From: Actinomycetota bacterium
GTDB lineage: Bacteria > Actinomycetota > Thermoleophilia > RBG-16-64-13
DNA length: 36,504 bases
Reading direction: 5' to 3'
NCBI GenBank assembly: GCA_023483915.1
Contig: JAMDEO010000124.1
Span: 1 to 36,504 of the forward strand
In this document: positions 6,688 through 11,719 of the stretch, one piece after another
Numbering within the stretch: the stretch's first letter is position 1
How the letters are laid out: each line of letters begins with the position of its first letter
Program-made: the position numbers and the translations under genes
The notes under the pieces: generated by a model
What the model saw: the letters and a program-made list of their open reading frames with translations, nothing else
Database searches by the model: none
What the model was told of the DNA's origin: nothing

Positions 6688-6864
6688 CTGTCCCATGACC
6701 TGTTTGCCTTCAATTCCGAATCGACGGCAACGAACGGATTTGGTCGGGGCCATCGCGTGCCCGCGTCCGCCGGCCGCTATCAAGCCTTGTGTGCCGATAG
6801 TGTGCGTTCCCTAAGGTAAAGTGGAGGACGTCGCTGGGAAATTGGTTTCGGGAGGGCGAACCTC

Positions 6865-7683
6865 ATGTCTAGTCTGCCAGGGGCGGCAAAACTCACCTTT
6901 GCCAGCTATCTCTCGCCGGCGCTGTGGCCGCTCTACCGGTCCATCGGGGGCTACCTCGAGCGCCGCCTTCATCGGCGCGTGCGGATGCTTACCGGCTCGT
7001 CTTTTGCGCAGTTCGGCTCGGGGGAGGTCGATCTTGGCTTCATTTGAGGCCTACCGTATGTCCGGCTGATGCGCCTGGACCCGCCACCGGTGGAACTGCT
7101 TGTCGCTCCCGTACTCGAAGGCGGGCGCTACGACGACCGCCCCATCTATTTCTCCGACGTCATCGTGCGCAAGGACAACCTTGCTCTGAACTTCACCGAC
7201 CTCCGCGGGTCCTCCTGGTCCTTTAACGAGTCCGGTTCCCACTCCGGCTACAACGTTGTCCTCTACCACCTTGTCGAGATGGGAGAGAGCCCCCGCTTCT
7301 TCGGGAGAATCATCCAGGCGGGTTCGCACCAGCGGTCTATTCGCTTGGTTGCCAGGGGCGAGGTGGACGCCTCGGCTATCGATAGCCAGGTGCTCGCGGT
7401 CGAGCTTCGCGAGCATCCCCGTATGAGAGCCAGCCTGCGGGTGATCGACAGCCTCGGCCCCTCTCCTATTCAGCCCGTGGTCGTCGCGAGCCGGCTGCCC
7501 GGGCGGGTTAAGGACGAGCTGCGCACGGCGCTCGCGGAGATGCATAATGACGCTGAGGGACGTCGGGCGCTGGCGTGGGGATTCGTCAAACGCTTGGAAG
7601 CGGTCGTTGACGCCGACTACGATCCCATAAGGAGAATGTTGGAGGCGGTCGAGAGGGCAGGGGTCGGCTTCGGAGACGGCTAG
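6865..7683 (+). CDS. PhnD-like phosphate/phosphonate-type substrate-binding protein with in-frame TGA (candidate selenoprotein, otherwise pseudogene)
   Basis: Two ORFs in the SAME frame (6865-7047 and 7069-7683) join as ...GSGEVDLGFI[TGA 7045-7047]GLPYVRLMRLDPPPVELL.... Conserved-looking PhnD-type features on both sides (Y..L...L, GEVDLGFI, LRGSSWSFNESGSHSGYNV, GEVDASAID). SD-like gggaggg before ATG 6865. Confidence 0.7.
7060..7080 (+). promoter_or_regulatory. Candidate bacterial SECIS hairpin downstream of in-frame UGA
   Basis: GUCC GGC [UGAUGC] GCC U GGAC: 7 bp, single bulged U, 6-nt apical loop with G as second nucleotide. Starts 12 nt after UGA; apical loop begins 19 nt after UGA. Confidence 0.5.
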
Positions 7684-8056: not shown

Positions 8057-8851
8057 TCACGGACCCAGGAAGAACTCCACCAACGGAGGCACTATTGCCT
8101 CTGGGCTTATCTCATGCTTCTGTCCCTCCAACTTACGGAGGCCGGCGTGCGGCAGCGTGTCACTAACCTTCTCAGCAGTCATGCGCATGAATGGGTGGCC
8201 CGAGCCTCCATACATCACGAGCACGGGCGTGTCTAATCGTTGGAGTTTGGCCACCGGAATAACGGCGGTTGTTCCGATGAGGTGGGTGTGGTCGTAGGCC
8301 AGGGTGGGGGCCAGCTTCTCAAGCCGGGCCCATGCCGAGCTGCGGCGAATGGCTTCGATCTGATCGGCTGGCGTGCCAACGTATTTCAGAAACAAAGCGA
8401 CGGCGTCACCCCGACGCTCCATCGCCAACAGGTCGGTAAGTTGGTCGATGTACTGGCTCCAGGCCCGCTGCGCTGCCGGGTCGTCGTTGTAGGGCACCTC
8501 GTAAATGGCCACCTTTCTTATCTTGTTGCCGAGAACAAGAGAGGTTTCCAAAACAAGTGCGGCCCCCGACGAATGGCCAAATAGAAAGGCAGATCCACCG
8601 GCGGCCTCCACGAGGGCTTCAATATCCTCGATTTCCCGAGCGACCGCGTAGGGCTGGGTATCTCCGCTGTCTCCCCGACCTCTGCGGTCATAGTTGAAGA
8701 CGGTGAACCAGGGGGATAAATGTTCCGCCAGTTCCACCCCCGACCAAGATAGGCGCGCGCTCAAGGCTCCAGCGACCAGCACGATCGGGGGCCCCCGGCC
8801 AGCTTTGTCATAGGCAATCGTCGTGCCGTCTTGAGAGGTGACTGTTGGCAT
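8057..8851 (-). CDS. Alpha/beta hydrolase
   Basis: GPPIVLVAGALSARLSWSG, FNYDRRGRGDSG, nucleophile elbow GHSSGAAL, C-terminal HE. Confidence 0.92.
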   Translation of the reverse strand: MPTVTSQDGTTIAYDKAGRGPPIVLVAGALSARLSWSGVELAEHLSPWFTVFNYDRRGRGDSGDTQPYAVAREIEDIEALVEAAGGSAFLFGHSSGAALVLETSLVLGNKIRKVAIYEVPYNDDPAAQRAWSQYIDQLTDLLAMERRGDAVALFLKYVGTPADQIEAIRRSSAWARLEKLAPTLAYDHTHLIGTTAVIPVAKLQRLDTPVLVMYGGSGHPFMRMTAEKVSDTLPHAGLRKLEGQKHEISPEAIVPPLVEFFLGP

Positions 8852-9098
8852 TCTTGTTTCCTTCGCCGGCGTTGCCGGGATCTCGCGTCCAAAAAACGAC
8901 CACGGGCGTCCCTGCCCGATGGCTCTCCACTCGATTCCTCATACCCGAGATGCCATGAGCAGGAAACCGGCACAGTTCCACGGCTGGGTTGAGCCTTCTG
9001 GACACCCTGCAACCACCGCCAGCTGCCGCGCGAACTGCTTGTGGTTTAATTGCCTTTCCGGAATAGCCCAAGAGGTTGCACGTTTAGGAGGGCGTCCC

Positions 9099-10406
9099 AT
9101 GTCGCTTTCCCGCCGGTGCCAAGCGGAGCACTCACACCGCGATTTCCGTCGCACCTTTTTTGCTCCGGCCGCCGTCGTGCTGGCAGCGTTGTTCCTGTTC
9201 ATGTTCGGCGGATCGGCTCTGGCCGGACCTCCGTGGTCGGATGCCCCTAGCGTGTACTGGCAGCACTCTTACGGCCTCACCGAGGCCCAGGTGGGCGCTG
9301 TTGCTGGCGGCTACTCGGACGGCACCTTCCGCCCTGCCCAGCCCGTCACTCGCGCGGAGTTCGCCAAAATGGCCGTTTCCGGCTTGGAGCTCACCACGCA
9401 GAACCCGGCGTCCCCGACTTTCATAGACGTCCTCCCGGGCAGCCCCTTCTACATCTACGTTGAGACTGCCTATGCCGTCGGCCTGGTGAAAGGTACGGAC
9501 ACGCCTGCGGGAAAGATCTTTGGACCGGATACCGACATCTCTCGTCAGCAGACCAATACCATCCTCGGGCGCTATCTCTCCGCAAACGAACTCGATGCCA
9601 CCGGCCGCATTACCGGCAGAACTGGCGGAGAGGAGGGCCCACAGGAATACCCTTCTCTCGAAGCCTGGTATGCGACCGAGGGGGGCTGGTTTCTCCCCCT
9701 GTTCAAGGATTATGCTGCCGTTCTCCCGGCGCACGCTCCTGGCACCGCATATCTCATTCTTCATCCGGTGATCAAGGGCTCTCACGGGAAACTTGATCCG
9801 GCGGCGAACCTGAGTCGGGCGCAGGCCGCCGCCATGGTTCTTCGCGCGAAGGCCGCGGCGTTCGCCCCGGTTTCCCCGTATGTCAACTCCCTCGACTTTC
9901 ACTCCGGACCGGTAGCCGGCGGCAACACGGTGGTCATCGGAGGCAAGTATCTAGCCGGCGCAACCGCGGTCAGCTTCGGCGACTCGCCCGCGACCAGCTT
10001 CGCGGTCGAATCTGATTACCAGATCAGAGCCGTCGTCCCGGCCCACGCCGAGGGCACGGTAGTCGTACGCGTCACCAACCTTCGCGGGATCAGCGCCGAG
10101 AACGCCGATCCGACCAACAGTTACACCTACACCACGGCCCATCCCGCTGTCACCTTTGTCAACCCAAACAGTGGCACAACGGCCGGGGGCGACACGATGA
10201 TCATCGGGGGTACCGATCTCTCAGGCGCTGTAGCCGTTACCTTCGAGGGCACGCCGGCGACAAGCTTCCACGTTGACGACTCCAACCACATCACCGCAGT
10301 TACCCCGGCCCACGCCGCCGGTCCCTTGGATGTGCGCGTCACAACCTCGAACGGCACCAGCCTCGCGAACCCCAACGGCGTTTACACATATGCGGCTTCC
10401 TCCTAG
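9099..10406 (+). CDS. Secreted SLH-domain protein with two IPT/TIG repeats
   Basis: ATG 9099 with SD taggaggg; signal peptide (AAVVLAALFLFMFGGSALA); SLH motifs GGYSDGTFRPAQPVTRAEFAKM; two ...GGNTVVIGGKYLAGATAVSFG.../...GGDTMIIGGTDLSGAVAVTFEG... repeats. Confidence 0.88.
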   Translation: MSLSRRCQAEHSHRDFRRTFFAPAAVVLAALFLFMFGGSALAGPPWSDAPSVYWQHSYGLTEAQVGAVAGGYSDGTFRPAQPVTRAEFAKMAVSGLELTTQNPASPTFIDVLPGSPFYIYVETAYAVGLVKGTDTPAGKIFGPDTDISRQQTNTILGRYLSANELDATGRITGRTGGEEGPQEYPSLEAWYATEGGWFLPLFKDYAAVLPAHAPGTAYLILHPVIKGSHGKLDPAANLSRAQAAAMVLRAKAAAFAPVSPYVNSLDFHSGPVAGGNTVVIGGKYLAGATAVSFGDSPATSFAVESDYQIRAVVPAHAEGTVVVRVTNLRGISAENADPTNSYTYTTAHPAVTFVNPNSGTTAGGDTMIIGGTDLSGAVAVTFEGTPATSFHVDDSNHITAVTPAHAAGPLDVRVTTSNGTSLANPNGVYTYAASS

Positions 10407-11719
10407 TCCCAGGGCCAGAACTCGTCCGCCACGTCATCGATAACGTCTCCACCCCCGAACTGCCGGTAGAAGTCAACGCGCACCCTCACACCCATTAGCG
10501 CGTCGCTCCCCTGATTGATGCCCAGAGAATCGCTGGTCTTGATCAGATCGCGGACGGCGGGATCGGACAAGAAGAAGAGCTCGTCGGCGTCGGCATGGTT
10601 GGCCAGGAAGTCGTCCATGAGTGGCTGGATGCGGTTTGCGTATTGGTCGAGCGTCTCTGCTCCCTGACGGAGGTACGGGCCTCCCAGTCTCCAGTCGAGC
10701 TCGCCGGCAACCTGGGGGTTCTGCGGATCGGTCGCATCATAGAGAGCGTAGCCGGCCTCTGCCCCGAAGTCATCGATGTATGTCAGGAATGTGGCGATCA
10801 GAGGAGCGATTACAGGTCCCTCCAGGCTCGAGGCGGACGCGTAGTAATTCCCGCCCCTCCCGGCGTAGTAGAAGTTGAAATGGACCATAGCATTCACTGG
10901 GTGCTCCACATACATCCGCCGGATCCAATCCATAGGACCGCCGGCCTTCGCCTCGAACGCTGCCTTGATTTGTGGCGGGGCGCCGCTGGTCGTCACGTCC
11001 GTAATGGTCACAAGCTCGTCCATCGTCTTGGTCTGTTTGACGAAGAATTTGAGGCTCCACAGCAATTGGGCCACCTCGCCGCGGTTGGCCATGCTAGTGA
11101 GCGGATTCTCCTTGTAGAAGGCGAATTTCAGCCGTTCGAGCAGGCCGCTCCACTGGGCCGTGTTGGCAAGCGGAGCATGTATGTCGCTGAAGTTCCCCCA
11201 GTCGGAGACGAACCCGGACGGCGGCTCAACGAGCTTGTCTGGCTGCAGGTTCTGAGCCGCCCGCACGATCATCGTCACCGCCTGGGCTCGAGTTATGTTG
11301 CTGTAGGGATCGAACGTGGTCGCCGTCTTACCCTTAGTGATGTTGTTGAGAGCGCAGACGGCCACATATTCGTGGGGATAGAGGGAGCTGGGATCGTCTG
11401 AACCTAGATCCACGAAGGGCACAGCGGGACTCGGAAAGTCATCCTCGTCGACAGGTAGTCCGAGGGTCAGCACGATCATCTTGGCGAATTGTTGCCGGGT
11501 GACCAACATCTCCGGGCCGAAGGTCCCGTTGGTGAAGCCACTGATGACATTCGACGCAGCCATGTCTTCGATGGCGTTGAAGTAGGGATGATTCTCCGGC
11601 ACGTCGCTGAAAGTGGGCGCAGCGATTGCCGTTTCCGGCGCCGCCATGGGCGTCCCTGACAGAAGAAGACCTAACGTGAGAGCGAGGGTCAGGCTGAAGA
11701 GCACCAGTGTACGCCGCAT
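10403..11719 (-). CDS. Secreted SLH-domain protein
   Basis: Signal peptide; FSDVPENHPYFNAIEDMAASNVISGFTNGTFGPEMLVTRQQFAKMIV and a second SLH unit FDPYSNITRAQAVTMIVRA. Confidence 0.87.
   Translation of the reverse strand: MRRTLVLFSLTLALTLGLLLSGTPMAAPETAIAAPTFSDVPENHPYFNAIEDMAASNVISGFTNGTFGPEMLVTRQQFAKMIVLTLGLPVDEDDFPSPAVPFVDLGSDDPSSLYPHEYVAVCALNNITKGKTATTFDPYSNITRAQAVTMIVRAAQNLQPDKLVEPPSGFVSDWGNFSDIHAPLANTAQWSGLLERLKFAFYKENPLTSMANRGEVAQLLWSLKFFVKQTKTMDELVTITDVTTSGAPPQIKAAFEAKAGGPMDWIRRMYVEHPVNAMVHFNFYYAGRGGNYYASASSLEGPVIAPLIATFLTYIDDFGAEAGYALYDATDPQNPQVAGELDWRLGGPYLRQGAETLDQYANRIQPLMDDFLANHADADELFFLSDPAVRDLIKTSDSLGINQGSDALMGVRVRVDFYRQFGGGDVIDDVADEFWPWD

Follow-up and report, generated by a model that had tools for sequence, protein, structure and literature searches.

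A predicted selenoprotein with an AioX/ArrX-like binding-protein fold and an in-frame TGA at the column of the arsenic-bonding cysteine

Gene, reading frame and downstream hairpin

The window, that is, the whole stretch of 36,504 nucleotides analysed here, contains at 6865-7683 (+ strand) a gene for a candidate AioX/ArrX-like selenoprotein with the PF12974 substrate-binding fold. The sequence and its comparison with homologues predict a product of 272 amino acids with selenocysteine (Sec) at residue 61, a TAG stop and no signal peptide. Translation gave a single 273-codon frame with one internal stop only, the TGA at 7045-7047 (+), in the context GEVDLGFI*GLPYVRLMRLDPPP. No other damage to the frame was seen, in agreement with an earlier note on this DNA that described one protein split by a single TGA without a frameshift. 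The read-through protein matched PF12974 over residues 23-252 (profile search, E = 6e-37). An SD-like GGGAGG lies at 6850-6855 (+), 9 nt 5' of the ATG, and an in-frame TAA is located 15 codons upstream of the same ATG, leaving no room for a signal peptide. The protein should therefore be cytosolic, as the earlier note had also supposed. The window was scanned for other TGA-interrupted frames, none of which was convincing. Two neighbouring genes on opposite strands (8838-10406 and 10403-11719) encode S-layer-homology proteins, one of them with IPT/TIG repeats.

A bSECIS-like hairpin, GUCCGGC-UGAUGC-GCC(U)GGAC, was located at 7060-7080 (+), with the apical loop at 7067-7072, 19 nt 3' of the UGA, and a G at loop position 2. 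This arrangement agrees with the published bSECIS model, in which the loop lies 16-37 nt after the UGA and has a G in position 1 or 2 (PMC13188914). The place of the loop is common to three of the related TGA-containing genes described below (L011, L012 and L014), and the stem is retained in L014, where two Arg codons carry paired synonymous changes on both sides. When hairpin stability was compared with synonymous recoding, over a stretch picked after inspection, the Sec genes had a mean z of -1.38 and 33 Cys genes a mean z of +0.07 (rank test, P = 0.0016). The hairpin is weak in three of the six Sec sequences (L012, L013 and L015), of which L013 and L015 are near-copies with a different fold. 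These statistics favour a bSECIS element in the Sec genes to a moderate degree, and are supportive rather than strong.

Conservation of the TGA and the selenocysteine machinery

The first homologue search covered 99 genomes, namely the host's own and those of its relatives, and its best matches were in five genomes of the same family, at 54-61% identity and with exactly one TGA each. These relatives represent genera g4, g5, g10 (two species) and g12, four genera other than the host's, and with the window they make six genomes in which TGA occupies the same codon, within GF[IL]-TGA-GLPY[VI]. When the search was widened to the class (399 genomes) and the phylum (398 genomes), it returned homologues that reach 60% identity and lack an internal stop; these and more distant loci number 41, all of which encode Cys at the TGA column. 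Three homologues on cyanobacterial plasmids (37-41% identity) have GFICGLP or AFICGLP at this column. Overall, the column is Sec or Cys in 50/50 proteins and Cys in 44/44 homologues without the TGA (the 41 plus the three from cyanobacteria), bearing out the earlier proposal that TGA replaces Cys. A scan of genome contigs had as its sole match one distant periplasmic homologue (L009). In the homologue tree, exported Cys sensors form one clade, separate from the signal-less proteins, and a single origin of Sec is neither supported nor contradicted.

Codon comparison of the Sec genes (15 pairs) gave dN/dS ratios of 0.12-0.35 in every pair for the part after the TGA and, with one saturated pair left out, 0.20-0.53 for the part before it; these values are rough because synonymous sites are close to saturation. 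The part after the TGA is constrained at least as much as the part before it, so the gene is not decaying, contrary to the decayed gene that the earlier note had considered. At the sequence level, these ratios indicate that purifying selection acts on both sides of the TGA in the Sec genes.

The host genome encodes a tRNA-Sec (77.5 bits; anticodon tca, ARAGORN) and a selD that is itself a selenoprotein gene, with TGA as its active-site codon, and this Sec-TGA serves as a built-in positive control for the use of Sec. Neither selA nor selB was found in the host MAG, which is 76.7% complete; the top selB match (190.9 bits, 410 aa) was under the cut-off and, judging by its size, is presumably EF-Tu. 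Among 17 relatives, tRNA-Sec was present in 14, selA in 15 and selB in 14. All five relatives with the TGA gene encode selA and selB, and tRNA-Sec was detected in four of them, the fifth genome being 78% complete. Since selA and selB are absent from the host MAG, we infer its full Sec machinery from these relatives; of the selA, selB, selC and selD that the earlier note proposed to look for, tRNA-Sec and selD are in the host itself, and selA and selB in most of its relatives. Conserved synteny of the tRNA-Sec region between host and relatives, sought as an explanation for the missing selA, was not found. The host selD (L120, G000:C123:2501-3418) reads HGSG-U-ACKLGPKDLG and is followed by a strong CCCCAA-GGAC-TTGGGG hairpin, and a selD with an in-frame TGA and a 3' hairpin likewise occurs in five relatives.

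These data bear on two readings of the TGA other than Sec. A sequencing error, or a pseudogene that once encoded the Cys form and then gained a nonsense mutation, would agree with a host MAG lacking selA and selB, but is very improbable in view of the identical TGA in five other genomes, the purifying selection on both of its sides and the otherwise undamaged frame. Reassignment of TGA to Trp or Gly, or plain read-through, would account for a frame that is open and conserved across the codon, but the aligned residue is always Cys and a dedicated tRNA-Sec with a UCA anticodon is present. Moreover, TGA is the true terminator of the same gene in three of the six Sec genes (L011, L014 and L015), so it is not simply a reassigned codon, and we give this reading hardly any credence. 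Several independent tests thus point the same way and, as far as comparative sequence data can tell, Sec is almost certainly encoded at UGA 7045-7047.

Binding pocket and nearest known proteins

The top matches among solved structures were ArrX (1e-20) and AioX (1e-18), with phosphite- and phosphonate-type proteins at 4e-7 or weaker, refining the family to AioX-like rather than general PhnD. In AioX, As(III) is bonded to Cys106 in a described pocket of seven residues, and arsenite is bound with a Kd of 177 nM (PMC5908839). Alignment to AioX places Sec61 in the Cys106 column and maps the other pocket positions, all on the + strand, to Tyr95 (7147-7149; AioX Tyr131), Ser125-His-Ser127 (7237-7245; Ser161 and Ser163), His155 (7327-7329; His192) and Asp173 (7381-7383; Asp210). 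Six of the seven positions are therefore conserved in the window protein when Sec is counted as Cys. The seventh, AioX Tyr88, corresponds to Phe47, and all but one of the six Sec proteins have Phe here. Residue 61 is the only invariant Cys/Sec in a nine-sequence alignment. PhnD has Gly65 at the Sec column and Asn at the place of Asp173, these being the two AioX-specific positions (PMC5908839). The earlier statement that Cys is typical of the PhnD-type motif accordingly holds for the AioX/ArrX/ArxX branch and fails for PhnD proper. Single-sequence 3D prediction of the window protein gave no usable model (pLDDT 34).

Four kinds of known protein resemble the window protein in different respects. 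The arsenite sensor AioX (PDB 6esk/6esv) has the same fold by sequence and the pocket residues listed above, but carries Cys instead of Sec and the Tyr88 that is mostly Phe in the Sec proteins; the window protein also lacks a signal peptide and adjoining AioS/AioR genes. The arsenate sensor ArrX (PDB 6x6b) is the best solved sequence match, with the same pocket and an FIC motif. It differs in being periplasmic and in having Cys, and it binds arsenate, not arsenite, despite sharing the AioX pocket residues including Cys (PMC5908839), so the pocket alone does not fix the ligand. Periplasmic export, a trait of the AioX/ArrX/ArxX sensors, is not shared by the window protein. Transport binding proteins of the PhnD/TIGR03431 and TIGR01098 types have the PF12974 fold and the Ser/Ser/His/Tyr part of the pocket; unlike them, the window protein has neither the Gly nor the Asn noted above, is encoded without a signal peptide or a permease, and scores under both cut-offs (82.2/261.1 and 83.3/112.05 bits, respectively). 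SaoX and SaoB (NF040735 and NF040727) are, like the window protein, of ABC binding-protein type and carry Sec, but their Sec motifs are UxP and CUxxT as against UGLPY, and neither model matched the window protein at E 0.1. A component of selenate transport was also considered and rejected, the TIGR04553 match reaching just 50/250 bits.

SaoX and SaoB are the binding-protein selenoproteins named in a May 2026 review of prokaryotic selenoproteins, in which PhnD, phosphonate and PF12974 are not mentioned (PMC13188914); earlier papers by Haft (J Bacteriol 2023, mSystems 2025) are covered here as represented in that review. That the earlier note knew of no established selenoprotein of this type is consistent with the review and with the missing SaoX/SaoB matches. 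On this comparative evidence, the TGA-containing group is a new predicted selenoprotein family on a known fold, with Sec at a residue of crystallographically known role, the arsenic-bonding Cys of AioX. Ordinary annotation truncates members of this family at the UGA. The family also draws attention to a cytosolic branch of the AioX/PhnD fold that has received little study, with members detected here in a single bacterial phylum and in cyanobacteria. Because one protein occurs naturally in a Sec and a Cys form, the two provide a way to ask whether selection can favour Sec as a metalloid ligand, beyond its use as a redox catalyst.

Genomic context and proposed function

Members of the Sec group do not share their neighbouring genes, except for the two close species. 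No sensor kinase and regulator, as linked in AioX/ArrX/ArxX systems, were present among the neighbours examined, none of the six loci has a recognised arsenic gene next to the Sec gene, and no ABC importer adjoins it in the group.

That the gene encodes Sec and that its product has an oxyanion-binding fold is, as a joint claim, very likely. SelB would deliver Sec-tRNA to UGA 7045-7047, aided by the downstream hairpin, as expected from known biology, and the mapping onto AioX suggests a full-length, two-lobed binding protein with one small oxyanion in its cleft. Sec61 would bond the central atom, as AioX Cys106 bonds As(III), and the oxygens would be held by Tyr95, Ser125, Ser127, His155 and Asp173. 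The likeliest ligand would be arsenite or a soft oxyanion resembling it, and selenium would tighten or speed its bonding. Since the locus encodes no signal peptide, permease or kinase, the most likely role would be to sense or buffer the ion inside the cell. By analogy with AioX, our best guess is that the protein binds or senses arsenite, or another soft oxyanion like it, in the cytosol and uses selenium as ligand atom. Direct contact of Sec61 with the ligand is, on the same analogy, fairly probable, and the assignment of arsenite specifically as the ligand is tentative. The fullest form of this proposal would be an intracellular AioX-like, Sec-based receptor for arsenite (or selenite/tellurite-like) ions, the first with a selenium ligand atom, in which Sec would owe its place to metalloid affinity rather than to redox catalysis; we put it forward as a possibility that may well prove wrong.

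Two functional alternatives retain Sec and assign it, or the protein, a different role. In one, the selenoprotein would partner a phosphate-like ABC importer, as an intracellular partner or sensor for imported phosphite, phosphonate, arsenate or a selenium oxyanion. Such a link is suggested by family f23, in four to five genomes of which the Cys homologue lies directly 3' of PhnD, PhnC and PhnE genes, with a LysR gene first in three. It is also suggested by the distribution of selA, found in 30/33 genomes with the gene and in 236/398 of the phylum sample (Fisher P = 4e-5, kinship not corrected), an association of gene presence with selA that we read as a hint only. Against it, the Sec-group genes have no adjoining importer, the f23 binding protein is below the selenate-family cut-off (180/250 bits) and the cyanobacterial homologues occur in yet another gene context; we regard the importer partnership as unlikely. 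In the other alternative, Sec61 would be a redox or detoxification residue in a binding-protein fold, acting for example through reversible Se-S or seleninic acid chemistry, and not a ligand atom. Selenoproteins whose function is known are mostly oxidoreductases (PMC13188914), but the nine-sequence alignment shows no second conserved Cys partner and the Sec column is that of the Cys that binds the ligand in AioX, a relative of solved structure, making a redox role distinctly improbable. Of the earlier suggestion of an intracellular sensor or redox protein, the intracellular part stands and ligand binding is the likelier function. We prefer the cytosolic oxyanion-binding protein.

Several related loci show other arrangements. 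At the f23 loci L109, L112, L107, L113 and L110, a cytosolic Cys homologue ends a PhnD-PhnC-PhnE operon, which thus encodes two proteins of binding-protein type, one exported and one not. Exported AioX-like Cys proteins occur in the same bacterial family as the host (L026 and L027 in genome G004, and L021 in G013), and at L021 a HAMP sensor-kinase-like gene lies 3' of the AioX-like gene, the classical AioX/AioS layout. An SsuA-type binding protein encoded near the Sec gene of genome G009 (L056:11533-12669) weakly matches the SaoX model (27.6/300 bits).
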